Part shown: positions 20,016 through 38,065 of the stretch, in pieces
How the letters are laid out: every line of letters starts with the position of its first letter
How positions within the stretch are numbered: the stretch's first letter is position 1
Assembly: GCF_947492535.1 (NCBI RefSeq)
Contig: NZ_CANLNH010000001.1
Span: 248,001 to 312,000, forward strand
Direction: 5' to 3'
DNA: 64,000 nucleotides
From: an uncultured Dokdonia sp.
GTDB lineage: Bacteria; Bacteroidota; Bacteroidia; Flavobacteriales; Flavobacteriaceae
The notes under the pieces: generated by a model
Seen by the model: only the letters and a program-made list of their open reading frames with translations
Database searches by the model: none
Told to the model about the DNA's origin: nothing
Translations under genes and position numbers: made by a program

Positions 20016-20019
20016 AATT

Positions 20020-21012
20020 ATGAATTTTAAAAAACAAGTGATTATTGCGGGTATTGGCGTTGCTATACTTCTTATTTTAAGGGTTGTTTTTGCAAATGCG
20101 CAAAGTGAGTTGCCTATTTTTATTACGCTTTTAATAGGAAGTACACTGGCATATATCATTTTTTTATACCTATTTAAAATTGGGAAGTTGAAAGGGGAAA
20201 CCCATTGGAACTGGAGACGATTTATGGTATATGCCATAGGAATTATCTTGTTAAGCGTAGCATTAGATTATACGTCAAAGATTCATAATCATGAGTTGAG
20301 CGATAGTATATGGATAGATGCTCATGGAAATGCTTGGATAAAGGATGTATTTGGTGCGCTTCTAGCACTATTGATTTTTTATATTATTTTTTCTTCGTTA
20401 TACGAGCATTTTAAAGGAATTCAGAAACTAAAGTATCAGAAATCGACGGCAGAACTAGCCTTATTGAAAAATCAAATGAACCCTCATTTCTTTTTTAATA
20501 CATTGAATAATCTATATTCTTTAATAAAAAAAGACCCAGAAATTGCTCAAGAATATGTATTGAAACTTTCTGATGTCATGCGATTTACAATAGAAAAAGG
20601 CCAAAATGATATGGTAAAACTAAAAGATGAAATCAGTTATTTGAATAATTATATAGAACTTCAAACATCGCGGTATCATAGAGATATACGTGTTAATTTT
20701 GAGCATTCAGTAAAAAATCCTTCTTATGGAATTGCGCCATTACTTTTTATTAATCTTGTAGAAAATGCATTTAAACATGGGGTAGAAAAAATGACGCATG
20801 ATGCGTTTATACATATTACATTAACTGAAGATGATATGACTGTTCGTTTTAAAATCGAAAATAATTTTGACCCAGAAACTATAGAAAAGAAAGAAGGGAT
20901 AGGTTTGATAAATTTAAAAGAACGACTTCATTTGTCATATCCTGATACGCATGAATTATGTATTTCTAATAAAAATGAAATATATTCAGTGTATGTAACA
21001 CTTTTTAAATAA
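20020..21012 (+). CDS. LytS/YehU-like sensor histidine kinase
   Basis: A 330-residue membrane sensor with four hydrophobic segments in residues 6-130, then a His_kinase domain (PF06580 type) with NQMNPHFFFNTLNNL (phospho-acceptor His156) and the N-box NLVENAFKHG. It overlaps the response-regulator gene by one base (TAATG). No periplasmic sensor domain of note, so it probably senses within or near the membrane. Confidence 0.92.
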   Translation: MNFKKQVIIAGIGVAILLILRVVFANAQSELPIFITLLIGSTLAYIIFLYLFKIGKLKGETHWNWRRFMVYAIGIILLSVALDYTSKIHNHELSDSIWIDAHGNAWIKDVFGALLALLIFYIIFSSLYEHFKGIQKLKYQKSTAELALLKNQMNPHFFFNTLNNLYSLIKKDPEIAQEYVLKLSDVMRFTIEKGQNDMVKLKDEISYLNNYIELQTSRYHRDIRVNFEHSVKNPSYGIAPLLFINLVENAFKHGVEKMTHDAFIHITLTEDDMTVRFKIENNFDPETIEKKEGIGLINLKERLHLSYPDTHELCISNKNEIYSVYVTLFK

Positions 21013-21716
21013 TGATTAGATATATCATAGTAGATGATGAAATTGCTGCTCACGAGATTATTACTGAGTATGCTAAAGAATTGCCTCAATTACATTTTGT
21101 GAAGAGCTGTTATAATGCATTAGAAGCCATTACCTATTTACATACGCATGAAGTTGATTTGATCTTTCTAGATATTAACATGCCAAAACTTTCTGGATTT
21201 GATTTTTTAAAAACGCTAAAGACATATCCCAAAACGATTGTAACATCGGCATATTCTGAATATGCCCTGGAAGGGTATGATCTTAATATTTCAGATTATT
21301 TATTAAAACCATTTAGTTTTCAGCGGTTCTTGTCTGCTATTCAGAAAGTTTCAGAATCAATGTTAAAAGTGTCTTATGATAAGAATATGACAAAGAGCGA
21401 AGAAACCCCTTCTCATATTTTTTTAAAAGATGAAAAAAAGCACATCCAAGTAAAAATAACAGATATTTTATTTCTAGAAGCTTATGGGAATTATGTGAAA
21501 GTTCATTTTGATGATCAGGTTATTATAACACACCAGACACTATCTTCTTTTACGGAGGTTCTTCCAACGCATCAATTTATGCGCGTACATAAATCGTTTA
21601 TGATAGCTATACACAAAGTAACATTGATTGAAGGGAATAGGATAACGATTGCAGAGCATAAGATTCCTATTGGACAAACGTATAAAAATGCTGTAAGTAC
21701 ATTATATCATTATTGA
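21012..21716 (+). CDS. LytTR response regulator
   Basis: A 234-residue protein with a receiver domain (phospho-accepting Asp54 in IFLDINMP, conserved Lys in LLKPFS) and a C-terminal LytTR DNA-binding domain (ILFLEAYGNYVKVHF). Partner of the adjacent kinase. Targets are unknown; the next genes on the opposite strand are sulfur transporters and cydAB. Confidence 0.93.
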   Translation: MIRYIIVDDEIAAHEIITEYAKELPQLHFVKSCYNALEAITYLHTHEVDLIFLDINMPKLSGFDFLKTLKTYPKTIVTSAYSEYALEGYDLNISDYLLKPFSFQRFLSAIQKVSESMLKVSYDKNMTKSEETPSHIFLKDEKKHIQVKITDILFLEAYGNYVKVHFDDQVIITHQTLSSFTEVLPTHQFMRVHKSFMIAIHKVTLIEGNRITIAEHKIPIGQTYKNAVSTLYHY

Positions 21717-21717
21717 G

Positions 21718-21737
21718 TACGCTTTCGCGAAAGCGTA
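21718..21737. repeat. Perfect 20-bp palindrome copy
   Basis: TACGCTTTCGCGAAAGCGTA, the longest perfect form of the window-wide palindrome, three bases after the LytTR stop codon (between convergent genes), where it may also help end transcription. Confidence 0.9.
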
Positions 21738-21757
21738 TAAAGCAACATCTAAATCAT

Positions 21758-22171
21758 TTAATGTGGTAATTTATCTTTAAGTAAACCATATAAAAAAGTG
21801 CCTAAGACAGCTGCAATAATAACAACCAAAATAGGTGTAAAGCCAGCTCCTATAAGTGTAAACATAGGGCCTGGGCAAGCACCTGTTAATGCCCATCCTA
21901 ATCCAAAAATAATTCCACCAATTAAATAACGTTTCCACCCTTTTTCTTTAGAAGGAATCTGTATTTTCTCCCCATAAAATGATGAAATATTAAAACGCTT
22001 TATGAGGTAAGTAATCGTAATACCAATACCTAACGCCGATCCTATAATCCCATACATATGAAATGAATCAAAGGAAAACATCTCATAGATTCGAAACCAA
22101 GAAGCCGCTTCAGATTTGTACATGGTAATTCCAAATAAGATGCCTATACATAAGTAAGTGAATGTTTTCAT
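21758..22171 (-). CDS. YeeE/YedE-type half transporter (DUF6691-like)
   Basis: A 137-residue membrane protein with about four helices and the motif LTGACPGPMFTLIGAG, whose Cys matches the conserved cysteine of thiosulfate-transporting YeeE/TsuA proteins. It overlaps the larger half gene by 4 bp; together they equal one full-length YeeE. Predicted to import thiosulfate or a related sulfur species. Confidence 0.85.
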   Translation of the reverse strand: MKTFTYLCIGILFGITMYKSEAASWFRIYEMFSFDSFHMYGIIGSALGIGITITYLIKRFNISSFYGEKIQIPSKEKGWKRYLIGGIIFGLGWALTGACPGPMFTLIGAGFTPILVVIIAAVLGTFLYGLLKDKLPH

Positions 22172-22731
22172 AGTGTAAATACTAAAGGGAAAAGAAGATG
22201 AATCATGATAAGTCCTCCTATAAAGAAACCTATAACAGCAATAAGGGAAGGGCGTTGTAAATTACTTAAACCAGAGATCGCATGTCCTGAAGTGCATCCT
22301 CCTGCATATCGAGCGCCAAACCCCACCAATAATCCTCCGATACTCAGTAAAAGAAGTGTTTTTGGGTTTGTGAAAATAGCATTGTCAAATAGCTCTGTAG
22401 GAAGGTAACTACTTCCTGCGCTTTCAAAACCCATGTTTTTTAAATCCGTAATTGTATCAGGATGGATAGCTACCACTTCATTGTTTGATAGCAAATGTGC
22501 ACCTATATAGCCTCCTATGACGGCACCTATCACAACGATAAGATTCCAACGGTGTGCTTTCCAATCAAACTTAAAAAAAGAGGATGCATTGCCTGCACCA
22601 CATAGTGTACAAAACGTTCGTAGGTTAGAAGACATTCCGAAGTTTTTACCAACCATAAGGAGTAAAAACAAAATCAAAGCAATCATAGGTCCTCCTATAT
22701 ACCAAGGCCAAGGATCATATATCCAATTCAT
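22168..22731 (-). CDS. YeeE/YedE-type thiosulfate transporter half
   Basis: Membrane protein of 187 residues from ATG 22731 (MNWIYDPW). An in-frame GTG at 22758 is rejected because it lies inside the predicted -7 box. It contains ARYAGGCTSGHAISG with the conserved substrate-relaying cysteine. It pairs with the DUF6691-like half downstream. An operator dyad (22778-22791) sits at the activating distance upstream, tying it to the Crp/Fnr regulon. Confidence 0.86.
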   Translation of the reverse strand: MNWIYDPWPWYIGGPMIALILFLLLMVGKNFGMSSNLRTFCTLCGAGNASSFFKFDWKAHRWNLIVVIGAVIGGYIGAHLLSNNEVVAIHPDTITDLKNMGFESAGSSYLPTELFDNAIFTNPKTLLLLSIGGLLVGFGARYAGGCTSGHAISGLSNLQRPSLIAVIGFFIGGLIMIHLLFPLVFTL

Positions 22732-22747
22732 GTATAAAGTGTTTTTA

Positions 22748-22791
22748 CAAAAAAACACCTTTTGATCATGATACTTGGTAACCTAAGTTAC
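22748..22791 (-). promoter_or_regulatory. Crp/Fnr-type promoter of the YeeE operon
   Basis: The operator GTAAC-CTAA-GTTAC (22778-22791) lies 36.5 bp (centre to last base) upstream of the -7 box TTTTTTTG (22755 to 22748, minus strand; one mismatch to TAnnTTTG). The spacing is identical to four other promoters in this region. Confidence 0.75.
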
Positions 22792-22827
22792 ATAGCGAAA
22801 AGATAAAAAGAATACGATCTATGTTTC

Positions 22828-23850
22828 TTAATGACGCTCTAGAATTTTAATCATTTTAAAAGACTTTAATAAATGAAAAAGACCCGGCAAAATGACACAG
22901 CCGCCTATCAAAAGCGATATGCCTAAAACCTTAATCACACTATCTGGTGCGATATTTTCTAAAATACTGATACCTCCGTCTGTGGTAAATAAAATCATTG
23001 GGTAATGTGGTATAAGCGCCGCTATTAAAATAAGAAGTACTTGACTGCCAGCAAATAATCGACTAAGAACTCTACGTCCTTTACGTATACTAGACCATAA
23101 TGGGATAAGCAAGATAGCAGATATTAAAATAATTGTCATTGCATAGAGATTAGATACAAAATCAATCACAAACTGTATTTCAGAAATATACCCATACAGT
23201 ATGGTGATAAATCCAAAGAGAACCACAACAATAGTCGCAATAGTTGCTTTTTTTACATATATTTTTTTATCTCCATAAGAAGCTTCTCCAATAAGTAATA
23301 CCGCCGATAAAAAAGCACATAATGCAGCAAAAAAGAATCCGGTTAGTATTGAAAATATATGCAGCCAAGAGTCTATATATAAGATCTTAAAGCTATAATC
23401 TATAGGTGTAGTCGTATGAATAATTTTACCGCTAATCATAGCGCCAAAAGTGATTCCTAAAAAGATAGGAGTGACTAAACTGGAAATTTTAAACATCCAG
23501 TCATATAAGATTTGAGATTTGTCTTTATAAGCATCATAATGTCTAAACACAAAAGCAACGCCTCGTAATGTAATACCTAGTAACATAAGCGTAAGCGGAA
23601 TGTGTAAATAGATCACTATAATGTTATAATATACAGGAAATGCCACCCATAATATGACAATCATAATAATGATCCAGATATGATTTGCTTCCCATACAGG
23701 TCCCATGACTCTATACACTGTTTTTTTAGTAATTGCTTGATTCTTTTTAGAAGAAAACAATTCGATAATGCCTGCGCCAAAATCGGCACCAGCTAAAAGG
23801 ACATATAGTACTAACGAAAAAGCTAGAAAAAAGAGAACGACATAAATCAT
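22828..23850 (-). CDS. cydB: Cytochrome bd oxidase subunit II
   Basis: A 340-residue polytopic membrane protein of the CydB/CioB family (GADFGAG start, GPVWEANHIWII motif). With CydA it forms a quinol oxidase that reduces oxygen at high affinity. It overlaps cydA by 4 bp. No cydX-type small subunit was seen after it. Confidence 0.94.
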   Translation of the reverse strand: MIYVVLFFLAFSLVLYVLLAGADFGAGIIELFSSKKNQAITKKTVYRVMGPVWEANHIWIIIMIVILWVAFPVYYNIIVIYLHIPLTLMLLGITLRGVAFVFRHYDAYKDKSQILYDWMFKISSLVTPIFLGITFGAMISGKIIHTTTPIDYSFKILYIDSWLHIFSILTGFFFAALCAFLSAVLLIGEASYGDKKIYVKKATIATIVVVLFGFITILYGYISEIQFVIDFVSNLYAMTIILISAILLIPLWSSIRKGRRVLSRLFAGSQVLLILIAALIPHYPMILFTTDGGISILENIAPDSVIKVLGISLLIGGCVILPGLFHLLKSFKMIKILERH

Positions 23851-25160
23851 ACTGCTACAGATGTTGGGTTATTCAATGCTTTTATTTGTCTAGCCATAAG
23901 CCAAGTCACTGCAATGGTTAGCATACTATATAAAGCCACATACATATAAAAGCTATATACAATACCCGGAACAGGTGTAACGGCATCTTTGGTTTTCATG
24001 ATATTATGAATAATCCAAGGTTGTCTTCCTACCTCAGTGACTATCCACCCAGCTTCTAAGGCTATAAATCCCATAGGCGCCAATACGATAAATAATAACC
24101 AAAACTTTGGGGAGTTAAGCCATGTACGCTTTCGCGAAAGCGTAATAAAAAACAATACTCCTGCGAGTAATAATAACGTTCCTAAACCAATCATCACCTG
24201 AAAAGCGTAATGAACAATGGCTACATTGGGATGTTCGTCTTCTGGGAAGTCATTGAGTCCTTTTACCTCAGCATCAAAATCTCCAAAAGCTAAAAAAGAC
24301 AACGCCTTAGGAATAGCTATTTTATGAGTAACCTCTTGTGTTTCTTGATTTACAATGCCTCCTATATATAAAGGCGCTCCTTTAGACGTCTCAAAATGCG
24401 CTTCCATCGCGGCAAGTTTTACAGGCTGTCTTTCGGCAATGTCTTTTGCAGATAGATCCCCACTTATAGGCTGCAAAATAGCAGCAATAGCTCCAAATGT
24501 AATGGCAATTTTAAACGCCTTTTTATGAAGCGCTACATTTCGTTTTTTAAATACCTGATAGGCATGTATTCCAGCTACAGCAAATCCTGTAGCTGTAAAT
24601 GCAGCAAGTGTCATATGCAATGCTTGTGTAAACCAAGCAGGATTAAATAATGCTTTTATAGGATCTATATTTAAAAACTCTCCGTTGATATAATCAAAAC
24701 CAGACGGGGCGTTCATCCATCCATTTGCAGAGACCACCAAAATCCCAGAAGCAACTCCGGAAATACCTACAATTACACCTGTCCACCAGTGAAACTTTTC
24801 AGGTATTTTATTCCATCCGTAGAGATAAAATCCAAGCGCGATAGCTTCTACAAAGAAGGCGGCGCCTTCTAGTGAAAAAGGCATTCCAATGATAGGGCCT
24901 GCATGTTTCATGAATTCAGGCCATAAAAGACCCAATTCAAAGGAAAGTGCAGTGCCAGAAACAGCTCCTGTAACAAAGAAAATAGCAACACCTTTTTGCC
25001 ATGATTTTGTAAGTGTTAAGTAAATTTGATTTCGAGTATTTAGCCATTTTTTATGTGCGACGACCATAAAAAAAGGCATTACCATACCTACGCAGGCAAA
25101 TACGATATGAAAGATAAGAGTAAACGCCATTTGAAGTCTTGCAGCATCTAAATTTTCCAT
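23847..25160 (-). CDS. cydA: Cytochrome bd oxidase subunit I
   Basis: A 437-residue, short Q-loop form of CydA (the E. coli long-loop form is over 500). Haem/quinol landmarks are visible: an N-terminal His in FHIVFACVGM, the GRQPW motif and conserved Glu residues in early helices. The codons for T-L-S-R-K-R are encoded by a perfect copy of the window-wide palindrome (24125-24144). Unlike its neighbours, it lacks a GTRAC-N4-GTTAC operator at the correct spacing. Confidence 0.95.
   Translation of the reverse strand: MENLDAARLQMAFTLIFHIVFACVGMVMPFFMVVAHKKWLNTRNQIYLTLTKSWQKGVAIFFVTGAVSGTALSFELGLLWPEFMKHAGPIIGMPFSLEGAAFFVEAIALGFYLYGWNKIPEKFHWWTGVIVGISGVASGILVVSANGWMNAPSGFDYINGEFLNIDPIKALFNPAWFTQALHMTLAAFTATGFAVAGIHAYQVFKKRNVALHKKAFKIAITFGAIAAILQPISGDLSAKDIAERQPVKLAAMEAHFETSKGAPLYIGGIVNQETQEVTHKIAIPKALSFLAFGDFDAEVKGLNDFPEDEHPNVAIVHYAFQVMIGLGTLLLLAGVLFFITLSRKRTWLNSPKFWLLFIVLAPMGFIALEAGWIVTEVGRQPWIIHNIMKTKDAVTPVPGIVYSFYMYVALYSMLTIAVTWLMARQIKALNNPTSVAV
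24125..24144. repeat. Perfect 20-bp palindrome inside cydA
   Basis: TACGCTTTCGCGAAAGCGTA within coding sequence, encoding T-L-S-R-K-R in a loop of CydA. The frame is kept intact. Confidence 0.9.
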
Positions 25161-25245
25161 ACGATATCGTCTTATAAATGTAACATAGTAAAGATACGAT
25201 ACACTAAAAGATTGTATAGGACCCTATAGGTTCTAAAAAGAACGA

Positions 25246-25704
25246 TCAACGGTTTATTTTTGGTAAAAACCGACCTGTTCTTTTTTTATAGCGAAGATAG
25301 TTCTTAAAGGTGTATGTTAACCGCTGTTCTTCATACCGAGATTTGAAAACAAATAGAATGTAAAGGAGGAGTGTAATCAATACTTTATATCCTGATGAGG
25401 TGTAGAGGCTATATCCTGAAAAAACAAATAAAATACCTGTGTAAATAGGATGACGTATGTATTTGTAAAGTCCACTTTGAATAAGTTGCGAACCTGATTT
25501 TGGAGATGGGAAAGGAGATAGATTTTTATTGAGTTGAAGTAACGCAATACCAATAATGACACTTCCTAAGATAGCAATGCTCAATCCTACGAGTGTAACT
25601 ATATACGGAAGTTCTAATTGTAATTGAGAGATGTCAAAAATGAATAGAAAAAACAATACGAATTGAATTAACACAAAAGTAATATCAGCGGTTTGTAATT
25701 TCAT
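25246..25704 (-). CDS. ICMT/PEMT-like membrane methyltransferase
   Basis: A 152-residue membrane protein with four hydrophobic segments and the signature YIRHPIYTGIL of the isoprenylcysteine carboxyl methyltransferase superfamily, which binds S-adenosylmethionine. In bacteria these proteins methylate lipids or other small hydrophobic molecules; the substrate is unknown. Lies 86 bp upstream of cydA on the same strand and could share its transcript. Confidence 0.8.
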   Translation of the reverse strand: MKLQTADITFVLIQFVLFFLFIFDISQLQLELPYIVTLVGLSIAILGSVIIGIALLQLNKNLSPFPSPKSGSQLIQSGLYKYIRHPIYTGILFVFSGYSLYTSSGYKVLITLLLYILFVFKSRYEEQRLTYTFKNYLRYKKRTGRFLPKINR

Positions 25705-25726
25705 AATGACAAGATACTATAAACAT

Positions 25727-25797
25727 GCTTTATGCATTAGAAAATCTATTGCGTATTGAGTTTTCAATCCTCATAACGAATCCCTAATGCATAAAGC
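25727..25797. repeat. 14-bp inverted repeat with long loop
   Basis: Perfect arms GCTTTATGCATTAG (25727-25740) and CTAATGCATAAAGC (25784-25797) with a 43-nt loop, just upstream of the methyltransferase gene. Could be a terminator for the DUF2892 transcript or an operator. Confidence 0.55.
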
Positions 25798-25800
25798 GGG

Positions 25801-25835
25801 TTAAAAGCTCGGTTGTCAATAACACGAGCTTTTAA
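25801..25835 (-). terminator. Hairpin downstream of the DUF2892 gene
   Basis: Arms TTAAAAGCTCG and CGAGCTTTTAA (11 bp) 32 bp after the DUF2892 stop codon; the T-run is short. Confidence 0.55.
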
Positions 25836-25866
25836 GATAAATTATATGTATTGTTTCTCGACCTAA

Positions 25867-26082
25867 TTAATTGTCTTTAGGAGTTTCTTTTGTGGTCTTC
25901 AATCCAACTAAAGCATACAGAGGACAAAAACTAATAAAACTTGTAAGGAGGAATATAGCAGAAGCAGCAAGAAGCACATATGCTAATGTACCGCTGATTA
26001 TATTTTGCCAGTAAAGTATTCCAACTACGGCAGCAATTAAAATTCGAACAACACGATCTGTAGCACCCATATTCTTTTTCAT
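25867..26082 (-). CDS. DUF2892 (YgaP-like) membrane protein
   Basis: A 71-residue protein matching the YgaP C-terminal membrane domain: the N-terminal KNMGATDRVVR, two helices and the SFCPLYALVGLKT end. This domain is often next to or fused with rhodaneses and sulfur genes, consistent with the surroundings. It is probably co-transcribed with the 28-residue ORF 18 bp upstream from a Crp/Fnr-type promoter. Confidence 0.85.
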   Translation of the reverse strand: MKKNMGATDRVVRILIAAVVGILYWQNIISGTLAYVLLAASAIFLLTSFISFCPLYALVGLKTTKETPKDN

Positions 26083-26100
26083 AGGATATATGTTTATATA

Positions 26101-26187
26101 TTATACGTTTTCTATTACGAAATAAGCTATTGCAAATATGCTTGAACATATCAAACAGACAAGTAGTAACTTGATTCCTTTCTTCAT
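26101..26187 (-). CDS. 28-residue membrane mini-protein
   Basis: ATG 26187 to TAA 26101: starts M-K-K-G-I-K, then one hydrophobic helix (about 18 residues with two Cys), ending V-I-E-N-V. It lies between the predicted promoter (operator 26222-26235, -7 box 26199 to 26192) and DUF2892. The ATG is four bases after the -7 box, so the mRNA would start at or next to it. Coding is supported by position and composition only. Confidence 0.5.
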   Translation of the reverse strand: MKKGIKLLLVCLICSSIFAIAYFVIENV

Positions 26188-26191
26188 TGTG

Positions 26192-26235
26192 TAAATGTAT
26201 TCTATGGAGATATCAATTCCTGTGACATATGTTAC
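26192..26235 (-). promoter_or_regulatory. Crp/Fnr-type promoter of the mini-ORF/DUF2892 operon
   Basis: The operator GTGAC-ATAT-GTTAC (26222-26235) is centred 36.5 bp upstream of the last base of the -7 box TACATTTA (26199 to 26192; one mismatch). A direct copy of GTTAC follows at 26240-26244. Confidence 0.75.
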
Positions 26236-26302
26236 ATGTGTTACTTGATAGAAATGATGCATGAGTTTTTCCGACTAGTTGGGAATAATAATACTATGAT
26301 TG

Positions 26303-26346
26303 GTGACTTTTGTTACATAATAGCTAATTACTTATTAGTATTTTTG
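26303..26346 (+). promoter_or_regulatory. Crp/Fnr-type promoter of the lipoprotein/sterol desaturase operon
   Basis: The operator GTGAC-TTTT-GTTAC (26303-26316) is centred 36.5 bp upstream of the last base of the perfect -7 box TATTTTTG (26339-26346). Transcription would start near 26352, six bases before ATG 26358. Confidence 0.8.
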
Positions 26347-26357
26347 GAATAAACTAT

Positions 26358-26849
26358 ATGTTAGGAAGAATGAAAATGGTTGTATTCATAGTTGCGATGT
26401 TATATATGGGTGCTTGTAATCAAGATGATCGTTCAGGAGCATCTGAAGTTATAGCTCCAGAAAATGAAGTAGAGGCAGCTGTTGTAAGTGTTGTAGTTTC
26501 AGGAGAAGGAGATACCTATACATTTAATGTAGGTGTTTCAAGTCCGGATACAGGTTGTGATCAATATGCCAATTGGTGGGAAATCGTCTCTGAAGATGGA
26601 ACATTAATGTATAGAAGGATTTTAGCGCATAGTCATGTAAATGAACAACCTTTTGTACGTTCAGGAAGTACAATGAATATAAATGCAAATCAAGAAGTTA
26701 TTGTCAGAGTGCATATGAATACGACAGGCTATAGTGTAAAAGGCTATAAAGGGTCTGTTGCTAATGGATTTGCTGAATTTCTGATTTCAGAAGATTTTGC
26801 AAGTGAATTAGCAAACCAATCACCACAACCAGATGGTTGTGCTTTTTAA
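26358..26849 (+). CDS. Small lipoprotein of the Crp/Fnr regulon
   Basis: A 163-residue protein with a lipoprotein signal (hydrophobic run ending L-Y-M-G-A-C, lipid-bearing Cys20) followed by a compact, mostly beta domain. No family recognised. The start at 26358 fits the promoter; M5 is an alternative. The gene is followed after 9 bp by the sterol desaturase gene. Confidence 0.7.
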   Translation: MLGRMKMVVFIVAMLYMGACNQDDRSGASEVIAPENEVEAAVVSVVVSGEGDTYTFNVGVSSPDTGCDQYANWWEIVSEDGTLMYRRILAHSHVNEQPFVRSGSTMNINANQEVIVRVHMNTTGYSVKGYKGSVANGFAEFLISEDFASELANQSPQPDGCAF

Positions 26850-26858
26850 AACAAAAGA

Positions 26859-27740
26859 ATGATGATGAAGTACGTAGATGCATTTATAAACGCTTTTTTA
26901 GGAACGATAGATTGGACGTGGAAATCTATCCTGTTTGAAGTGCCTTGGTATACCAATTACTTTTATGGACTTATCCTAATTTCTGTTGTTATATGGGGAT
27001 TGGAAATTGTATTCCCTTGGCGAAAAGAACAATCTATATTTAGAAAAGACTTTTGGCTAGATGGATTTTATATGTTCTTTAATTTCTTCATTTTCTCTAT
27101 TGCAATTAGTGGGTTTTATAAAGTACTAGAAGTATTATTTAGCGATATTTCTATCACTGCGAAAAGTCTAGCGGTCATAGATCCATCAGGCTGGCCAATG
27201 TGGTTACAGTTACTCGTGTTTTTTATAGTACTAGACTTTGTACAATGGTTTACACATACATTACTTCATAAGTTTCCATTGCTATGGAAATTTCATAAAG
27301 TACATCATAGTGTGAAAGAGATGGGCTTTGCAGCGCATTTACGATATCACTGGATGGAGAATGTACTTTACAAGCCTTTAAAGACTTTTGGAATTATGAT
27401 TTTAGGAGGCTTTGAGCCAGAGCAAGCCTATATTGTTCACTTTATAGCTATTGTAATAGGTCATTTTAATCATTCCAATATTAAGATTACGTGGGGACCT
27501 TTAAAGTATATTATCAATAATCCAGTAATGCATTTGTATCATCATGCATATGTATTGCCAGAAGGAAAATACGGAGTCAATTTTGGGATTAGTTTAAGTC
27601 TTTGGGATTACCTGTTTAAAACAAACTATATCCCTGAAGATAGTGGACAAATTACATTAGGTTTTGAAGGAGATGAGAATTTTCCAAAAGATTTTATAGG
27701 ACAAAATACCTATGGTTTTCGGAATAAGGAAGCTAAGTAA
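26859..27740 (+). CDS. Sterol desaturase/fatty acid hydroxylase-family membrane protein
   Basis: A 293-residue di-iron membrane hydroxylase. The His boxes are H-T-L-L-H (133-137), H-K-V-H-H (146-150) and a late H-L-Y-H-H. Four to five helices surround them. It inserts oxygen into lipid substrates and so needs O2. Co-transcribed with the lipoprotein from a Crp/Fnr-type promoter. Substrate unknown. Confidence 0.87.
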   Translation: MMMKYVDAFINAFLGTIDWTWKSILFEVPWYTNYFYGLILISVVIWGLEIVFPWRKEQSIFRKDFWLDGFYMFFNFFIFSIAISGFYKVLEVLFSDISITAKSLAVIDPSGWPMWLQLLVFFIVLDFVQWFTHTLLHKFPLLWKFHKVHHSVKEMGFAAHLRYHWMENVLYKPLKTFGIMILGGFEPEQAYIVHFIAIVIGHFNHSNIKITWGPLKYIINNPVMHLYHHAYVLPEGKYGVNFGISLSLWDYLFKTNYIPEDSGQITLGFEGDENFPKDFIGQNTYGFRNKEAK

Positions 27741-27742
27741 TA

Positions 27743-28384
27743 TTAGGCGTATGATACTATTTCTATAGTACCTTGTTTTAATTTGACCATCCCTTCATTT
27801 TCTAGCTTTTTGAGTAACCTAGAAATCACTTCTCTTGATGATCCTAATTCATAAGCGATCTGTTGATGTGTGGTATGTAAAATAGCACTCCTTTTAAGAG
27901 CCACTTCTTTTTTTAAGTATTCTAGTAATCTGATATCTTTATTTGAAAAAGTAAGAATTTGTATAACCGTAAGTAACTCTTCAAACTTTACATTAAAGAG
28001 ATCATAAATAAACTCATTCTATTTAGGATATTTTTTAGCAATTTCCATGGCTTTATCTGAAGGAATCACAACGACCTGTGCATCTTCTTCAATAACTGCT
28101 TTTACTTGACTAGCTTCATTGCGTACCATGGTAGTAACAGACATCACACAACTCTCACCAGGTTTGATATAGTATAGAAGTACCTCATGACCATCTTGGT
28201 CTTCTTTAAATACTTTTGCGAGTCCAGAAAAAAGTAAAGGGATGAGCTTAACATATGCACCTTGTTTTAAAATAACAGTTCCAGCTTCGAGTGTAACAAC
28301 CTTACTTATTGCAATAATATCTTGCTTAAGTTCTGGCATGGTTGCTAGTTTAGGAAAGTATGTATCTAATGCTTTTGCAATCAA
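27743..28384 (-). pseudogene. Crp/Fnr regulator broken by an in-frame TAG
   Basis: ATG 28384 opens a Crp/Fnr sensor domain that stops at TAG (28019-28021, codon 122). The same frame then continues without further stops through a complete HTH (HQQIAYELGSSREVISRLLKKLE) to TAA at 27743. Total length with the stop read as sense is 213 residues, matching the intact 210-residue paralogue at 31750-32382. In the alignment the TAG stands at Trp120 of the paralogue, so a single TGG to TAG change explains it. The N-terminal piece alone could be made but cannot bind DNA. Confidence 0.85.
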
Positions 28385-28389
28385 TGATT

Positions 28390-28971
28390 TTACTTTTTAA
28401 ACATTTTTATAAATAACTCTCTTTCTGCCCTACTAGTAACAGAATTTGTAGCAGGTTCCATAATTTCAATATCAAAATAAGGACTGAATAATGCCTGATA
28501 TTCTTTTTTGTTTCCACCAAAAGGCGGATGGTCTTCATACAAAGGAGCATCAAACAATAGTCCTACAATTTTCCCATTAGGGACTAATACGCTATGCATT
28601 TTTTTTACATACGCAGGTCGTAAACTAGGTGTTAATGCGCAAAAGAACGTCTGCTCAATAACAAGATCAAATGTCATATCTAGTTCAAAAAAATCAGCTT
28701 GAATCAATTGGTCTTTTGGAAAGTCAGGAATTCGCTGTTGAATATTTTCCAAAGGTGATGTTGCAATATCAATGACATATACATTTTTGAACCCATTGTT
28801 AAATAGATATTCAGCTTCGTGAGAATTGCCACCTCCAGGAATTACAATTTTTAATTCTTTATCCTCTAATTGATCTATATATTCTTTTATGGGTGTAGAA
28901 ATTCTTCCTAAATCCCAACGGGCAGTTTTCTCTTGGTATCTGTTTTCCCAATAATCTTCATTAAGTTCCAT
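28390..28971 (-). CDS. TPMT-like SAM-dependent methyltransferase
   Basis: A 193-residue class I methyltransferase of the thiopurine S-methyltransferase family: an N-terminal DYWENRYQEKTARWDLG, the SAM motif VIPGGGNSHEAEYL and acidic VIDIA. Such enzymes methylate thiols or selenols, fitting the sulfur neighbours. Fifth from the promoter side in the order persulfide dioxygenase, rhodanese, this gene, broken Crp; the gap to the rhodanese is 17 bp. Confidence 0.85.
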   Translation of the reverse strand: MELNEDYWENRYQEKTARWDLGRISTPIKEYIDQLEDKELKIVIPGGGNSHEAEYLFNNGFKNVYVIDIATSPLENIQQRIPDFPKDQLIQADFFELDMTFDLVIEQTFFCALTPSLRPAYVKKMHSVLVPNGKIVGLLFDAPLYEDHPPFGGNKKEYQALFSPYFDIEIMEPATNSVTSRAERELFIKMFKK

Positions 28972-28988
28972 AGTAGATACTGTCGGTT

Positions 28989-29357
28989 TTATTGTCTATT
29001 CCATGCACTCCAACCTCCTTTAAAATCATAAATAGTTGTAAATCCTAGTTCAGTCATCAGTTTACTAGCTCTATGACTACGTACGCCTGCATGACAATAA
29101 ATGTAAACAGGTTTTGTTTTATCCAGTTTTTGAATTTCTTTTGAGAATGTAGCCTTATCGGCAATATTAATATTAATTGCATCATCTATATGGCCTTGAC
29201 TGTATTCTTTTTCGGATCTAACATCTACGAGTTGTACATCTTTACCAATCACATCTGTTTTTAGTGTTTGGAGACCTATGATATGAGCGTCTTTACTTTT
29301 TTGCGCATTACAAGAAAGGCATAGTATAAACAGGGGTATGAAAAATAAGTTTTTCAT
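28989..29357 (-). CDS. Rhodanese-domain lipoprotein
   Basis: 122 residues from ATG 29357 (MKNLFF); the in-frame codons upstream overlap the previous gene. A lipoprotein signal (ILCLSC) is followed by one rhodanese domain with active-site YCHAGVRS. It would transfer sulfane sulfur at the inner face of the outer membrane or in the periplasm. It directly follows the persulfide dioxygenase gene. Confidence 0.88.
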   Translation of the reverse strand: MKNLFFIPLFILCLSCNAQKSKDAHIIGLQTLKTDVIGKDVQLVDVRSEKEYSQGHIDDAININIADKATFSKEIQKLDKTKPVYIYCHAGVRSHRASKLMTELGFTTIYDFKGGWSAWNRQ

Positions 29358-29359
29358 GG

Positions 29360-30775
29360 TTATTTTTTTATAGTTGTTGGACATACATACGAAGTTACAG
29401 GAATTTGAGCATCTTTAATAGCTTTAAAACCACCTGCAATATCAATACTATTATGAATCCCTCTACTTTTTAATATAGAGATGGCAATCATACTGCGATA
29501 ACCTCCTGCACAATGTACATAAAAGGTAGTATCATTAGGATATGTATCTAAATAATCATTTAAAAAGCTCAAGGGTGTGTGATGTGCATTTTCAATATGT
29601 TCTGATGTGTATTCTCCTTGTTTACGTACATCAACTATAGGAACCTCTTTTTCTTCTATAATCTTTTTGAATGCTGTAGCTGTGATAGAAGTCACAGTAT
29701 CGTATTCCATAGCAGCTTTTTTCCAGCTATCAAATCCGCCTTTTAAATATCCTATAGTGTGATCAAACCCTACACGAGATAATCGGGTGATGGTTTCTTC
29801 TTCTCTACCTTCAGGAGTGATTAATAATATAGGCTGCGTTACATCACCTATCAAAGCGCCTACCCAAGGTGCAAACCCTCCATCTATTCCTATAAAAATA
29901 GAACGAGGAATATGGCCCGCTGCAAAGTCTTTTTGATGACGAACATCTAATAGTATGGCACCAGTTTCATTAGCGGCAGTTTCAAACTCTTTTGGAGAAA
30001 GTGCATGCGACCCTCTTTGGATAACCGTTTCTATATCTTCATATCCTTCTTTATTCATTTTTACATTGAGCGGAAAGTATTGAGGAGGAGGCGTTAATCC
30101 ATGTGTAACTTCTTTGACAAACTCAGCTTTTGTCATATCTGCCCTTAATGCATAATTACTTTGTTTTTGACCACCTATCGTTCCTACAGTTTCTTTACTT
30201 AAGTTTTTTCCACAGGCAGAACCAGCTCCATGTGCTGGGTATACAATAACATCATCAGCAAGCGGCATAATCTTGGTGCGTAAACTATCATACAACGTTT
30301 CAGCAAGTTGCTCTTGTGTCATGGAAGCCGCTTTTTGAGCAAGATCTGGACGTCCAACATCTCCTAAAAATAAAGTGTCTCCGCTAAAAATAGCATGATC
30401 TTTTCCCGAGGTATTCCTTAAAAGGTAGGTCGTGCTTTCTATTGTGTGACCTGGTGTGTGAAGTGCTATTATGGTAATGTCTCCTAGTTGAAATTCTTGG
30501 CCGTCTGTAGCAATAATGGCATCAAAAGAAGGATTGGCATTTGGACCATAAACAATCGGAGCACCTGTTTGTTTTGACAGCGTGACATGACCACTCACAA
30601 AATCGGCATGAAAGTGTGTTTCAAAAATGTATTTGATCTTTGCATTTGCTTTATTTGCTTTTTCAATATAAGGTTGTGTTTCACGTAAGGGATCTATAAT
30701 AGCTACTTCTCCATTACTTTCAATGTAGTAGGCTCCTTGGGCTAAACACCCTGTGTAGATTTGCTCGATTTTCAT
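29360..30775 (-). CDS. Persulfide dioxygenase fused to two rhodanese domains (CstB/ETHE1-like)
   Basis: 471 residues from ATG 30775 (MKIEQIY); a longer frame to 30850 is only repeat DNA. The N-terminal metallo-beta-lactamase domain of ETHE1 type has H54-x-H56-x-D58, HTPGH (106-110) and SGDTLF (Asp133). The first rhodanese (about 270-350) lacks its Cys (ITPEGREE); the second has it (HCAGGYRS, Cys422). This matches the CstB layout, which oxidises persulfide and passes the second sulfur to form thiosulfate. The 5' UTR contains the nested repeat. Confidence 0.9.
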   Translation of the reverse strand: MKIEQIYTGCLAQGAYYIESNGEVAIIDPLRETQPYIEKANKANAKIKYIFETHFHADFVSGHVTLSKQTGAPIVYGPNANPSFDAIIATDGQEFQLGDITIIALHTPGHTIESTTYLLRNTSGKDHAIFSGDTLFLGDVGRPDLAQKAASMTQEQLAETLYDSLRTKIMPLADDVIVYPAHGAGSACGKNLSKETVGTIGGQKQSNYALRADMTKAEFVKEVTHGLTPPPQYFPLNVKMNKEGYEDIETVIQRGSHALSPKEFETAANETGAILLDVRHQKDFAAGHIPRSIFIGIDGGFAPWVGALIGDVTQPILLITPEGREEETITRLSRVGFDHTIGYLKGGFDSWKKAAMEYDTVTSITATAFKKIIEEKEVPIVDVRKQGEYTSEHIENAHHTPLSFLNDYLDTYPNDTTFYVHCAGGYRSMIAISILKSRGIHNSIDIAGGFKAIKDAQIPVTSYVCPTTIKK

Positions 30776-30793
30776 GATATATATGTTTATGAG

Positions 30794-30830
30794 TACGCTT
30801 TCGCGCCTGCCTGCCGGTAGGCAGGAAAGC
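30794..30830. repeat. Window palindrome interrupted by a CCTGCC palindrome
   Basis: TACGCTTTCGCG (30794-30805) and AAAGC (30826-30830) are the halves of the common palindrome; between them is a 20-bp near-palindrome CCTGCC-TGCCGGTA-GGCAGG. A similar insert is at 48368-48388. Here it falls in the predicted 5' UTR of the persulfide dioxygenase mRNA and would form a strong hairpin. Confidence 0.8.
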
Positions 30831-30873
30831 AAAATTAGTACGCTTCCCATTGGTATGCAGTAACATTAGTTAC
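30830..30873 (-). promoter_or_regulatory. Crp/Fnr-type promoter of the persulfide dioxygenase operon
   Basis: The operator GTAAC-ATTA-GTTAC (30860-30873, perfect dyad) is centred 36.5 bp upstream of the last base of the perfect -7 box TAATTTTG (30837 to 30830). Confidence 0.82.
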
Positions 30874-30877
30874 AAAA

Positions 30878-31678
30878 CTACTTCGTAAATTCTTTGAAGA
30901 TGATATAAATTCCCATAATGAGGACAAACCAGCCAAATCCTTTTTTTAATTTCTTGCCGTTTATAAAGTTTGTAAGCCACATCCCAATAAAAATACCTGC
31001 GATAGAAATACTCGTAAAACTTAATAAAAAGGACCAATCTATTGTTAAGTTTTCAATATCACCTATAAATCCTATTAATGATTTTATGGCGATGATTAAT
31101 AGGGAAGTAGCTACTGCTTTTTTCATAGGAAGCTTTGCTAGTAATACAAGTGCAGGGATAATAAGAAAACCTCCTCCAGCTCCTACAATGCCTGTGAGTA
31201 CTCCTACAGCAATACCTTCTATAAAGATAATGGGATAATTATAACGAATCGCGGTCTCTTCTTGTTGCTTTTCACGTTTTGTAATGATCATTGAAATAGA
31301 TGCTAATAGCATGATTACAGCAAAAAAAGTCATAATCCCAACATCTTTAGTAACGACATAATCTCCTATAGAAAATAGCCTTTCAGGAATAGTAGGAACA
31401 ATAAACTTTCTAGTCGTATATACAGCTAGTAATGCTGGAATAGCAAATACAATAGCAGTTCTAAAATCAACGAGTCCTTTTCTTATATTATGGATAGCGC
31501 CTACCAGTGCAGATACACCCACCACAAAAAGAGAGTATGCGGTAGCGATTACAGGATTAAAATAGAGAAGGTATACTAAGATTGGTACCGTTAATATAGA
31601 ACCTCCGCCTCCTATAAGACCCAATATAATACCTATGCATAAGGCACCAATGTAACCAAAAATTTGGATGATATCCAT
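30878..31678 (-). CDS. TauE/SafE-type sulfite/sulfoacetate exporter
   Basis: A 266-residue membrane protein with seven or eight helices and glycine-rich IGGGGSILTVPIL and GVVGAGGGFLIIPALV-like repeats, one per half, as in TauE. It would export sulfite or another sulfonate or thiosulfate, the product side of the persulfide dioxygenase. It starts 71 bp after the intact Crp/Fnr gene and is probably read through from its promoter. Confidence 0.88.
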   Translation of the reverse strand: MDIIQIFGYIGALCIGIILGLIGGGGSILTVPILVYLLYFNPVIATAYSLFVVGVSALVGAIHNIRKGLVDFRTAIVFAIPALLAVYTTRKFIVPTIPERLFSIGDYVVTKDVGIMTFFAVIMLLASISMIITKREKQQEETAIRYNYPIIFIEGIAVGVLTGIVGAGGGFLIIPALVLLAKLPMKKAVATSLLIIAIKSLIGFIGDIENLTIDWSFLLSFTSISIAGIFIGMWLTNFINGKKLKKGFGWFVLIMGIYIIFKEFTK

Positions 31679-31749
31679 TTAATATTAGTAGGAGTAGTTT
31701 GTTGTAAATGTACTAATAGTTTTCATAATCAGATTTAGGAAATTTGCTT

Positions 31750-32382
31750 TTACAATGATTTTATATGTATACTGTTTCTATGTAATTCTATTTTACCTTG
31801 ATTCTCTAAGTTTTTTAAAAGTCTAGAGATGACCACTCGTGATGTATGAAGTTCATAGGCAATTTCTTGATGTGTACTATGAATTATGCTACTATCATTT
31901 ACTTTAGATTTGTCTTTAAGGTACTTTAGTAAACGTTCATCCATTTTTAAAAAAGCAATACTATCAATAGTTTCTAGCATTTCCATGAGACGTGTATGAT
32001 AACTTTCAAAAACAAAATTCCTCCAGCTTTTATAGGTTGCTGTCCAGGTTTCCATTTTTTCTATAGGAACCATAATGAGTTTCGTATCGGTTTCTGCAAT
32101 AGCACGTATTTGACTTTTTGTTTCTCCAAGACAACAACTCAATGTCATTGCGCAAGTATCTCCTTTTTCTAAAAAATATAATAATAATTCATCCCCATCT
32201 GAGTCATCCCTTAAAATCTTAATAGCACCACTTATTAATAAAGGCATAGATTTTACATATTGGCCTATTTCTATCATCTTAAAACCTTCAGGTATTTCTT
32301 TAAAAGTACCTACTCTAGATATTTCTTCAAGAAGCGTTGCTTCAAAAAGATGCCCGTAACTATTTTTTAGTTCTTGAATCAT
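31750..32382 (-). CDS. Crp/Fnr regulator, candidate master of the GTRAC regulon
   Basis: A 210-residue regulator: cyclic-nucleotide-binding-type domain, dimer helix, then the HTH HQEIAYELHTSRVVISRLLKNLE. It has cysteines at 77, 83 and 84 (a C-C pair) in the sensor domain, two of which are missing in the broken paralogue; a thiol or persulfide sensor is possible. Its own promoter carries the GTRAC-N4-GTTAC operator, implying autoregulation. It lies among its likely targets. Confidence 0.88.
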   Translation of the reverse strand: MIQELKNSYGHLFEATLLEEISRVGTFKEIPEGFKMIEIGQYVKSMPLLISGAIKILRDDSDGDELLLYFLEKGDTCAMTLSCCLGETKSQIRAIAETDTKLIMVPIEKMETWTATYKSWRNFVFESYHTRLMEMLETIDSIAFLKMDERLLKYLKDKSKVNDSSIIHSTHQEIAYELHTSRVVISRLLKNLENQGKIELHRNSIHIKSL

Positions 32383-32446
32383 CTTGTGAATTTACAGTTT
32401 TTGTGGACCATATTTTCCTTTAAAAATAAATCTAATGTGTTTTAAA

Positions 32447-32490
32447 CAAAAGTAAAATGATCTATATGTTCATACAGTAACAATAGTTAC
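32447..32490 (-). promoter_or_regulatory. Crp/Fnr-type promoter of the regulator gene itself
   Basis: The operator GTAAC-AATA-GTTAC (32477-32490, perfect dyad) is centred 36.5 bp upstream of the last base of the perfect -7 box TACTTTTG (32454 to 32447). No box occurs at this spacing on the plus strand. Confidence 0.82.
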
Positions 32491-32556
32491 ATAAGTAAAA
32501 TAATAGGAGAACTATCATCAAAAGAATAGCTCTATATCATAAAAGGATGTGTAGCT

Positions 32557-32802
32557 TTGCAAGTCCAAAATAATATGATGATAGCATTTAATTCAGTAGA
32601 GGTAGTAGGGTATTTAGCTAGTTTATTTGTATTACTATCTTTTTTTAGAAAAGATATAAGACAACTCCGAATTGTAAATTCAATTGGATGTGCATTTTTT
32701 GTAGCGTATGGAATCTTACTCACAAGCATCCCAATTATTATTACAAATGTGGCCATTTTAATAGTAAATGGATATTATCTTTTTATGAAGAAACCGTCTT
32801 AA
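32557..32802 (+). CDS. Small membrane protein, YgjV/SemiSWEET-like
   Basis: An 81-residue protein (possibly from M at 32578) with three hydrophobic segments: VVGYLASLFVLLSFF, IGCAFFVAYGILL and ITNVAILIVNGYYLF. The pattern resembles the three-helix PQ-loop/YgjV unit. Transport substrate cannot be told. Divergent from the Crp/Fnr regulator. Confidence 0.65.
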   Translation: MQVQNNMMIAFNSVEVVGYLASLFVLLSFFRKDIRQLRIVNSIGCAFFVAYGILLTSIPIIITNVAILIVNGYYLFMKKPS

Positions 32803-33179
32803 AGAAGGAATAAAAGCACTCCAAAAGGTAAGATATAGCCATTTTTCTGATGTATTTTTGTTTATAATTTGAGGTGATTAATTCTTTAAATCTCCATGTT
32901 TTGTTAAACAAAAAATGGATTATAGTCACTATTTATTGACTATAATAGGAAAATTAATAGTTTTTTTATGATTAAAAGAAGCTATTTGATTACTATCTTA
33001 TTTGAAAATAAGTATTTGAAAAACAGTTACTTAATAATAAATTTATGTATCATTGTATAATAGTGTATATAAACAAAATGTTAACATAAACATAATCAAT
33101 AGATCTTTTTTGTCTAATAAACTTTGTTTATTTACATTTACAAACTTTCAAACAACTATTGAATAAACAAATAATAAGT
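32803..33179. other. Intergenic region with two dyads, no gene seen
   Basis: No convincing ORF. It holds a hairpin CCAT-G-TTTTGTT-A-AACAAAA-A-ATGG (32894-32918) followed by a 10-bp inverted repeat ATTATAGTCA/TGACTATAAT (32919-32946). Either could be an operator or a terminator. A near -7 match TACATTTA is at 33133-33140, 40 bp before the next start. Confidence 0.5.
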
Positions 33180-33404
33180 ATGGATATTTTAACTGAAGCG
33201 GAAGCTTTTGAAAATTCCAAAATGAGTCATATGTCGACAAGTGATCGTGTGGTAGCTTCAAGAGAAGCGAAACGACTCATTTTAGCAATTAATGAAATTT
33301 ATAAGGAAACAAAAGAACCGGAGCTGATGGATATGATGAAGAGGCTTACAGAAAAAAAACGTAAGATAGAAAAGCGTCTTAAAGGACGTCCAGATACTGC
33401 TTAA
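33180..33404 (+). CDS. Small basic helical protein, conserved-type hypothetical
   Basis: 74 residues from ATG 33180 (MDILTEAEAF); an upstream TTG is unlikely. Mostly helical, with an acidic first part and a basic C-terminal half (KKRKIEKRLKGR), a pattern seen in small nucleic-acid- or membrane-associated proteins. No family named. It is followed immediately by a strong terminator, so it is a single-gene transcript. Confidence 0.6.
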   Translation: MDILTEAEAFENSKMSHMSTSDRVVASREAKRLILAINEIYKETKEPELMDMMKRLTEKKRKIEKRLKGRPDTA

Positions 33405-33411
33405 ATATACA

Positions 33412-33440
33412 ATGGCTCGCAATCGCGAGCCATTTGTTTT
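33412..33440 (+). terminator. Rho-independent terminator
   Basis: Perfect 9-bp arms ATGGCTCGC/GCGAGCCAT with loop AATC, followed by a T-rich run. Confidence 0.88.
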
Positions 33441-33563
33441 TTAATGAAATTCTACATTGAGAAGTCTGTAAAACGAACTCAATATAGCATATTGAATTAA
33501 TCTTGTAGAAAAGCAAGACGTAAACGTATTACGATTTATAAGAAATTTGCAACCTTTTGGATG

Positions 33564-34616
33564 CTATTTCTTCTTTAGAGATAATAATTCTTGTGCTGCA
33601 CTAAAAGGTGATATCGTATTTTTAGATAGCTGTGCTAATACTTTAGGTAAATGCTCTTTTACTGTAGCGTCTCTATAGAAATTTTCTTTTAAGCTATTTT
33701 CAATAGTTTGTAATAACCAGTAGGTGTTTTGCTTATGGCGTTTTGTTGTAAAATACTCATTTTCTTGTGTGAGTTCTTTATAAGAAAGAATGAGCTCCCA
33801 TATTTCTGAAATTCCTTTGTGTTCTAGCGCACTACAGGTACTTACTTTAGGCGTCCAGTTGCTATCTTTTGGTGGGTATAAGTGTAACGCTTTCGCGAAA
33901 GCGGTCTTAGCCAGTTTTGCAGCTCTTTCATTTTTACCATCAGCTTTATTAATGACGATAGCATCTGCCATTTCAATAATTCCTCTTTTAATTCCTTGTA
34001 GTTCGTCGCCAGCTCCTGCCAATTTTAAAAGTAAAAAGAAATCTACCATAGAGTGTACCATAGTTTCGCTTTGGCCTACTCCCACAGTCTCTATAATAAT
34101 GGTGTCAAAACCTGCGGCTTCACATAAAATAATAGCCTCTCGGGTTTTACGTGCCACACCACCTAAAGAATCTCCAGAGGCAGAAGGTCTTATAAATGCA
34201 TTTTTATCTTGAGAAAGTTCTGCCATTCTCGTTTTATCACCTAGGATACTTCCATGAGATAATGAACTAGAAGGATCTACTGCGAGGACCGCTACTTTTT
34301 TTCCTAAACCTGTAAGATAGTTTCCAAAAGACTCTATAAATGTGCTTTTTCCAACCCCAGGAACACCTGTAATACCTATACGGATAGATTCGTTGGTCTG
34401 TGTTAGGCATTTCTCTATAAGCAATTGTGCTTGGTCTTGATGCGTAGCGACAGTGCTTTCTACTAACGTAATTCCTTTAGATAGCGCTGTGTGATTACCA
34501 GCAATAATATTTTGAGCAAGAAGAGGTATATCAAGAGCAGGTTTTGCCTTTTGTCTATTCCCTCTTGTAAAGGCAGGATTGATACTTCTGTGTATATCAG
34601 ATTTCTTAACTGTCAT
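33564..34616 (-). CDS. meaB: MeaB/ArgK-type GTPase
   Basis: A 350-residue G3E GTPase that protects and loads methylmalonyl-CoA mutase with cobalamin. P-loop GVPGVGKST, switch region VDPSSSLSHGSILGDKTRM, ETVGVGQSE and the guanine-specificity NKAD are visible. The segment T-A-F-A-K-A is encoded by a palindromic repeat (33888-33903). The mutase genes are not in the window. Confidence 0.93.
   Translation of the reverse strand: MTVKKSDIHRSINPAFTRGNRQKAKPALDIPLLAQNIIAGNHTALSKGITLVESTVATHQDQAQLLIEKCLTQTNESIRIGITGVPGVGKSTFIESFGNYLTGLGKKVAVLAVDPSSSLSHGSILGDKTRMAELSQDKNAFIRPSASGDSLGGVARKTREAIILCEAAGFDTIIIETVGVGQSETMVHSMVDFFLLLKLAGAGDELQGIKRGIIEMADAIVINKADGKNERAAKLAKTAFAKALHLYPPKDSNWTPKVSTCSALEHKGISEIWELILSYKELTQENEYFTTKRHKQNTYWLLQTIENSLKENFYRDATVKEHLPKVLAQLSKNTISPFSAAQELLSLKKK
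33888..33903. repeat. Perfect 16-bp palindrome inside meaB
   Basis: CGCTTTCGCGAAAGCG in coding sequence, reading A-F-A-K-A on the gene strand. Confidence 0.9.
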
Positions 34617-35415: not shown

Positions 35416-35419
35416 GATT

Positions 35420-38038: not shown

Positions 38039-38065
38039 TTTATAAATAATCATTTAAATATATAT

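Follow-up and report, generated by a model that had tools for sequence, protein, structure and literature searches.

A putative class II Crp/Fnr regulon of persulfide and thiosulfate genes in Dokdonia and related Flavobacteriaceae

Which protein switches on the genes that clear persulfide and thiosulfate sulfur in Bacteroidota, and what does it sense? The question is raised by a stretch of 64,000 nucleotides from an uncultured Dokdonia sp. (RefSeq GCF_947492535.1, contig NZ_CANLNH010000001.1, positions 248,001 to 312,000), referred to below as the window, in which five promoters carry the same inverted repeat and one of them lies ahead of a gene for a Crp/Fnr protein (31750-32382). A first, sequence-only reading had proposed that this protein acts on all five promoters from the position of a class II activator. 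The sequence directly shows the operator, its spacing and targets, linkage to the regulator gene, and conservation both within Flavobacteriaceae and outside them; together these provide very strong evidence for a sulfur-clearance regulon in Flavobacteriaceae and relatives and strong evidence for the assignment of its regulator. The 31750-32382 protein, acting at this operator, is very probably the class II activator of the sulfur regulon. On this reading, in which binding, activation and signal are inferred, a Crp/Fnr protein of Bacteroidota would act as class II activator of its own gene and of a regulon for persulfide/thiosulfate oxidation.

Five operators at one distance from the -7 box

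Each of the five sites consists of a dyad GTRAC-N4-GTTAC, a spacer of 22 bp and a box resembling TAnnTTTG, and reads in the direction of the gene downstream of it. The centre of the dyad is 36.5 bp away from the last base of the box in all five cases, with the boxes showing zero or one mismatch to TANNTTTG, and every dyad, 8-mer and distance reported in the sequence-only reading was found in its place. A further dyad at 26231-26244 is an overlapping near-match, for which no box was found at 36.5 bp. With up to one mismatch, TANNTTTG occurs at 1.09% of positions per strand (window 20001-33600), and the chance of finding five of five boxes at one offset, on either strand, is about 5e-9, or 1.4e-7 if 30 offsets are allowed.

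The genome of the strain (4.86 Mb) was searched for GTAACN4GTTAC and GTGACN4GTTAC and contains 11 and 7 of these sites, respectively. Of these 18, none but the five operators of the window lies outside open frames of at least 100 codons, and no other site has a box with two mismatches or fewer at this spacing; the remaining 13 lie inside such frames and have three or more box mismatches. The signal in this genome is one of position and spacing, not of dyad number. Chance dyads were rejected as an explanation, since spacing, position and conservation rule them out.

Recurrence around relatives of the regulator

Conservation was followed in a close set, the best 80 of 518 confirmed relatives of the 31750-32382 protein in named genomes, each taken with flanks of up to 8 kb; the loci come mostly from Flavobacteriaceae (Dokdonia, Aquimarina, Tamlana, Polaribacter, Lutibacter, Maribacter and others) and are related by descent, some being near-copies. 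GTRACN4GTYAC occurs 202 times in these loci, the same halves with spacers of 0-3 and 5-10 only 0-3 times, and among 60 permutations of the half-site GTAAC reaches 186 and the next 7, with a median of 0. The exact TANNTTTG follows 110 of the 202 dyads at 36.5 bp, and at most three at any other distance. A promoter with a spacer of 22 and up to one mismatch is present in 77/80 loci, and none of this kind was found in L079, L092 and L097; the conservation at orthologous promoters foreseen by the earlier reading is thereby borne out, with the same dyad and spacing in relatives.

The 193 sites whose box has up to one mismatch give the logo T(84%)-GTAAC-N3-T(82%)-GTTAC-T(67%)G(63%), followed by TA-N2-TTT-G. 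The dyads of the proposed GTRAC operator were retained, and its consensus was revised to T-GTAAC-N4-GTTAC (position 3 is A in 96% and G in 3% of the sites). Promoters of Bacteroidota have a -33 consensus TTTG, and the -7 box here is of the Bacteroidota type. The TG after the dyad coincides with the expected end of a -33 TTTG, in keeping with an overlap of operator and -33 region.

This geometry also bears on the possibility that the dyad is a repressor site whose occupation is lost on sulfur sensing, as with CstR or BigR. The persulfide regulators CstR, BigR and SqrR are indeed repressors (PMC5480029; PMC9774590; PMC7315123), but the dyad is fixed upstream at about -41.5, the place of a class II activator, and of a -33 element only the TG persists (67% and 63% across the 193 sites), suggesting a promoter that is weak without an activator, so that repression appears very improbable.

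A distant set of 80 regions was picked from a larger list of more distant homologues, with a regulator match in 80/80. Here a spacer of 22 with up to one mismatch yields 18 promoters in the 45 loci whose regulator has Val183 and 13 in the 35 with Glu183, compared with four or fewer at each of the other spacers between 10 and 39. In addition, 149 genomes of the family were searched and the strain's own was left out; across the resulting 148, uncorrected for relatedness, dyad density increases with the closeness of the best homologue of the regulator (Spearman 0.49, p 1.6e-10), from 0.76 per Mb in 10 genomes without a homologue to 2.32 in the 44 with a best E of about 1e-96 or lower. The reversed-pattern control shows no trend in the same 148 genomes (0.09, p 0.28).

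Targets were defined as clusters of the first gene after each promoter (spacers 21-23, with up to two mismatches at spacer 22), giving 226 rows including those of the window, labelled by Pfam where a family matched. A persulfide dioxygenase-rhodanese follows the promoter in 58/80 close loci, TauE in 38, YeeE-like genes in 28, a sulfate permease in 12, a YgaP-like DUF2892 protein in 8, and a fatty-acid hydroxylase and an SQR-like oxidoreductase in 5 each; for the L076 protein the label SQR is our own, Pyr_redox_2 being its only Pfam match above cut-off. Rarer first genes encode a 4Fe-4S/NrfD protein (3), a lipoprotein like that of the window (2) and an AhpC/TSA peroxiredoxin (2), and 13 targets are singletons, including one from the window. 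The regulator gene itself has the promoter in 27/80 loci, directly in 8 and before a small gene just upstream in 19. A membrane gene of 130 residues stands behind the promoter in 20/80 loci, 19 of the 20 lying 418-509 bp upstream of the regulator start; no Pfam family matched this gene, for which DUF983 is a provisional label. The same dyad, the same spacing and the recurring sulfur targets in relatives support the proposed Crp/Fnr class II regulon on sulfur genes.

The regulator, its recognition helix and its signal

The 31750-32382 protein belongs to the Crp/Fnr superfamily, with a cNMP-binding domain and HTH_Crp_2 both above the Pfam cut-off; only Crp/Fnr domains were found, and no homology to CsoR, ArsR or sigma-54 activators, the families of the persulfide sensors CstR, BigR/SqrR and FisR. 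An AlphaFold model built from 26 sequences reaches a predicted local distance difference test score (pLDDT) of 88, a single-sequence model (pLDDT 40) having been discarded, and its best Foldseek matches are CRP-family regulators, with NtcA at rank 13. Aligned recognition helices read SRVVISR in the regulator, TRVTVTR in NtcA and SRETVGR in CRP, so that by sequence the helix is NtcA-like. Judged by the NCBIfam equivalog model, however, the protein is no NtcA, scoring 42.3 bits against a cut-off of 244.95.

If another Crp/Fnr paralogue bound the dyads (the FNR-like protein 17786-18550 or one of two encoded on other contigs), the 31750-32382 protein would merely be a neighbour. Candidates exist, since HTH_Crp_2 matches five proteins of the genome, two of which are encoded on other contigs, and the link between Val183 and the operator is not strict, as L058 illustrates. 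Yet the promoters occur in 77/80 loci that were chosen only for this regulator, dyad density tracks its homologues, and it alone among the five has an Arg-Val...Arg helix, those of the other four being AKEACIR, SREVISR, SRPTLNT and SRQTVSN. Binding by a different paralogue is accordingly improbable.

As to the signal, CRP contacts cAMP through the pocket residues Glu72, Arg82 and Ser83. In the regulator the aligned residues are Met79, Lys89 and Ser90, meaning that Glu is lost, Arg is changed to Lys and Ser is kept, and cAMP was rejected as the signal on account of the lost Glu. FNR proteins of the Fe-S type carry their cluster-binding cysteines near the N terminus; the regulator, whose residues 1-76 contain no Cys, is not of this type.

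The cysteines it does have are Cys77, Cys83 and Cys84, which by alignment with CRP fall in the phosphate-binding cassette, where confidence in the model is lowest (block means 69 and 68, residues 71-90). Cys77 is kept in 161/161 homologues (81/81 close, window included, and 80/80 distant). The earlier suggestion that the Cys83-Cys84 pair carries the signal is backed in part: the two are kept in 81/81 and 79/81 of the close set, but all three cysteines are present in only 37/80 distant homologues and Cys83 without Cys84 in 16 more. Five distant loci (L187, L197, L203, L207 and L210) lack the pair yet have the persulfide dioxygenase and TauE as neighbours, and in four of the five YeeE as well. 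The pair was therefore rejected as a generally defining sensor, being lost in many distant homologues.

Sulfur acting at Cys77 is the likeliest signal, with a little under an even chance. A regulator that acts at the dyads and responds to redox state, oxygen, nitric oxide or a small ligand instead of persulfide comes close to an even bet as well: Cys77 is invariant even where no sulfur genes are near, whereas the pair is not, NtcA and CRP take ligands in the same domain, and the targets include proteins other than sulfur enzymes (fatty-acid hydroxylase, peroxiredoxin, cytochrome c-like protein), but the genes that recur as targets are of the persulfide, sulfite and thiosulfate type, and their published regulators sense reactive sulfur (PMC5480029; PMC9774590; PMC7315123). 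Still more tentatively, this branch of Bacteroidota Crp/Fnr proteins may sense persulfide directly, a cysteine (Cys77, in many members together with Cys83/Cys84) replacing the cyclic-nucleotide chemistry of the phosphate-binding pocket, and may drive sulfide/thiosulfate oxidation through an NtcA-type class II promoter.

According to the preferred reading, a dimer of the 31750-32382 protein would bind T-GTAAC-N4-GTTAC centred near -41.5 and activate, in class II fashion, five transcription units, among them that of its own gene, whose products remove persulfide and thiosulfate sulfur. The trigger would be a reactive sulfur species at Cys77, with Cys83/Cys84 helping in this clade, in the pocket that holds the cAMP phosphate in CRP. 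Judged by their families, YeeE would import thiosulfate or sulfur, the rhodaneses would pass sulfane sulfur to a thiol, the dioxygenase would oxidize the persulfide to sulfite, and TauE would export the sulfite.

Several observations pull in the other direction. Activation as opposed to repression is predicted from the position of the operator relative to a putative start site. Only 29/80 distant loci have such a promoter, and sulfur genes, near in 31/37 of the distant loci with all three cysteines, are also near in 22/43 of the others. The enrichment anticipated for this genome was confirmed by position and not by the bare dyad count, with GTAACN4GTTAC found 11 times genome-wide compared with 10 for the reversed pattern, and GTGACN4GTTAC likewise not enriched (4 forward and 3 reverse compared with 2 and 2 in the control). 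Because the own genome is at control level and the reversed control is noisy across genomes, the position-free count was not used alone. No convincing SQR of the L076 type was found in the own genome (best match 29% over 107 residues), and SQR was rejected as a partner there; this strain would therefore more probably obtain its persulfide from thiosulfate than from sulfide. Finally, the agreement between helix and operator falls short of being decisive. Distant loci with Val183 have dyads with only A/T in 13/17 cases, those with Glu183 in 0/12 (Fisher 6e-5), but in the close set a G/C dyad occurs in 13/76 loci with Val183, and the sole Glu183 locus, L058, keeps GTAAC..GTTAC (p 1.0). A tree of the 106 loci with a promoter, the other 54 being left out, shows three helix changes and two to three independent pairs, with a sign test that is not significant. 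A simple code in which Arg with Val reads GTAAC and Arg with Glu reads GTGAC is not claimed, and the co-change of helix and operator is treated as a hint only, because the independent pairs are few and L058 is an exception.

Genes of the regulon and comparison with known systems

The features of the window are collected in Table 1.

Table 1. Genes, operators and -7 boxes of the putative regulon, in window coordinates.
Feature	Position	Strand	Basis or remark
YeeE/YedE half 2	21758..22171	-	ORF, profile match (weak YedE/FdhT match)
YeeE/YedE half 1	22168..22731	-	PF04143; weak TsuA match; start taken at ATG 22731
-7 box of operator 1, TTTTTTTG	22748..22755	-	36.5 from operator centre
Operator 1, GTAACTTAGGTTAC (read on -)	22778..22791	-	promoter of YeeE pair
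YgaP-like membrane protein, DUF2892	25867..26082	-	Pfam (PF11127)
28-aa mini-ORF between operator 2 promoter and DUF2892	26101..26187	-	hydrophobic peptide MKKGIKLLLVC...
-7 box of operator 2, TACATTTA	26192..26199	-	fixed spacing
Operator 2, GTAACATATGTCAC (read on -)	26222..26235	-	exact dyad match
Operator 3, GTGACTTTTGTTAC	26303..26316	+	exact dyad match
-7 box of operator 3, TATTTTTG	26339..26346	+	fixed spacing
Lipoprotein-like protein	26358..26849	+	ORF; profile searches, no family match
Fatty-acid hydroxylase/sterol desaturase	26859..27740	+	Pfam (PF04116)
Second Crp/Fnr gene	27752..28384	-	E-type recognition helix; broken by one in-frame TAG (28019-28021)
TPMT-family methyltransferase	28390..28971	-	Pfam (PF05724)
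Rhodanese	28989..29384	-	Pfam (PF00581)
Persulfide dioxygenase-rhodanese fusion (metallo-beta-lactamase + rhodanese), 471 aa	29360..30775	-	Pfam, structure-sequence alignment
-7 box of operator 4, TAATTTTG	30830..30837	-	fixed spacing
Operator 4, GTAACTAATGTTAC (read on -)	30860..30873	-	persulfide dioxygenase promoter
TauE/SafE sulfite exporter family	30878..31678	-	Pfam (PF01925)
Crp/Fnr regulator, 210 aa	31750..32382	-	cNMP-binding fold, HTH_Crp_2, Cys77/Cys83/Cys84, helix TSRVVISR
-7 box of operator 5, TACTTTTG	32447..32454	-	fixed spacing
Operator 5, GTAACTATTGTTAC (read on -)	32477..32490	-	ahead of regulator gene and TauE

Two gene starts were moved. Because longer open reading frames (ORFs) begin upstream of the -7 box, ATG 30775 is preferred to 30850 for the persulfide dioxygenase, and about ATG 22731 to GTG 22758 for YeeE. 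The dioxygenase has a CstB-like layout, with PF00753 and two PF00581 stretches in one chain, and aligns over nearly its full length with 3tp9 (residues 3-460) and 3r2u (3-453). The separate rhodanese is probably a lipoprotein translated from an internal ATG, judging by its N terminus. A peptide like that of the mini-ORF occurs in the leaders of 5/8 relatives.

The leader of the persulfide dioxygenase also contains a near-palindromic repeat, CCTGCCTACCGGCAGGCAGG, at 30806-30825, which within two mismatches has 42 forward and 36 reverse (overlapping) matches in the genome, compared with 0 for the reversed control, and looks like a dispersed element of the repetitive extragenic palindromic type. 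The second Crp/Fnr gene forms the end of the dioxygenase operon and is an open frame of 214 residues in the Dokdonia metagenome-assembled genome L021; similar proteins with the E-type helix are found in L030, L062 and L076. The FNR-like Crp/Fnr gene at 17786-18550, about 3.2 kb from the YeeE pair, has an E-type helix too. Genes read from their ORFs as a cytochrome bd-like oxidase (22828-25160) lie between YeeE and DUF2892, with no exact dyad inside. At 34717-39817 two near-identical ORFs (34717-35415 and 37322-38038), each ahead of a different ORF with an HExxH motif, represent a local duplication.

Among known Crp/Fnr systems, NtcA provides the closest parallel in promoter architecture. NtcA-activated promoters have GTAN8TAC at about -41.5 and a -10 box, 22 nucleotides apart in the ilvG case (PMC3898017). 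The comparison with known Crp/Fnr operators suggested in the sequence-only reading was run for NtcA and gave the same operator core and geometry, together with the Crp/Fnr fold and an Arg-Val...Arg helix: the spacing of 22 nucleotides is found in 5/5 window promoters, with a predicted start site, and GTAN8TAC is complete in 3/5 operators, the other two having GTG in one half. In contrast to the window regulator, NtcA senses 2-oxoglutarate and controls nitrogen genes, while the targets here are sulfur genes and the -7 box is of the Bacteroidota type. The closest solved sequence is a Crp/Fnr protein of Eubacterium rectale (PDB 3dv8; E 8.9e-15, rank 3 by fold), which has Cys where the window regulator has Cys77 and Cys83 and differs in its helix, REVITR.

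Thiosulfate oxidation is reported for a wide range of Flavobacteria from marine sediments and vents (PMC12345210). In a literature search that left most subscription journals outside its coverage, no paper was recognised as describing this regulon, and the regulators of reactive sulfur named in the accessible part of a review, CstR, SqrR, BigR, PigS, PigP and FisR, are not called Crp/Fnr there (PMC9774590). For sulfur control in Bacteroidota, the present analysis offers a defined operator with a rule for its spacing, a regulator and a set of targets, and direct persulfide sensing by a Crp/Fnr protein would, if true, add a further family to the reactive-sulfur sensors.

The gene content itself is familiar from other bacteria. 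The cst operon of Staphylococcus aureus comprises tauE, cstA, cstB and sqr under CstR (PMC5480029), and resembles the window in combining TauE with a persulfide dioxygenase-sulfurtransferase, an SQR-like gene being present in some of the relatives studied here; CstR, however, is a CsoR-like dithiol repressor, whereas here a Crp/Fnr protein would act from an activator position. In Acinetobacter baumannii, BigR controls yeeE-yedE-pdo2 and FisR activates an operon for persulfide dioxygenase, SQR and TauE (PMC7315123), gene sets like those of the window that are governed by an ArsR-family repressor and a sigma-54 activator and not by Crp/Fnr. Because the Crp protein of A. baumannii is listed among persulfidation targets (PMC7315123), the idea of sulfur sensing may be kept open for Crp proteins. 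By analogy, the gene set of the window may operate as the regulons of CstR, BigR or FisR do, under a sensor from another family.

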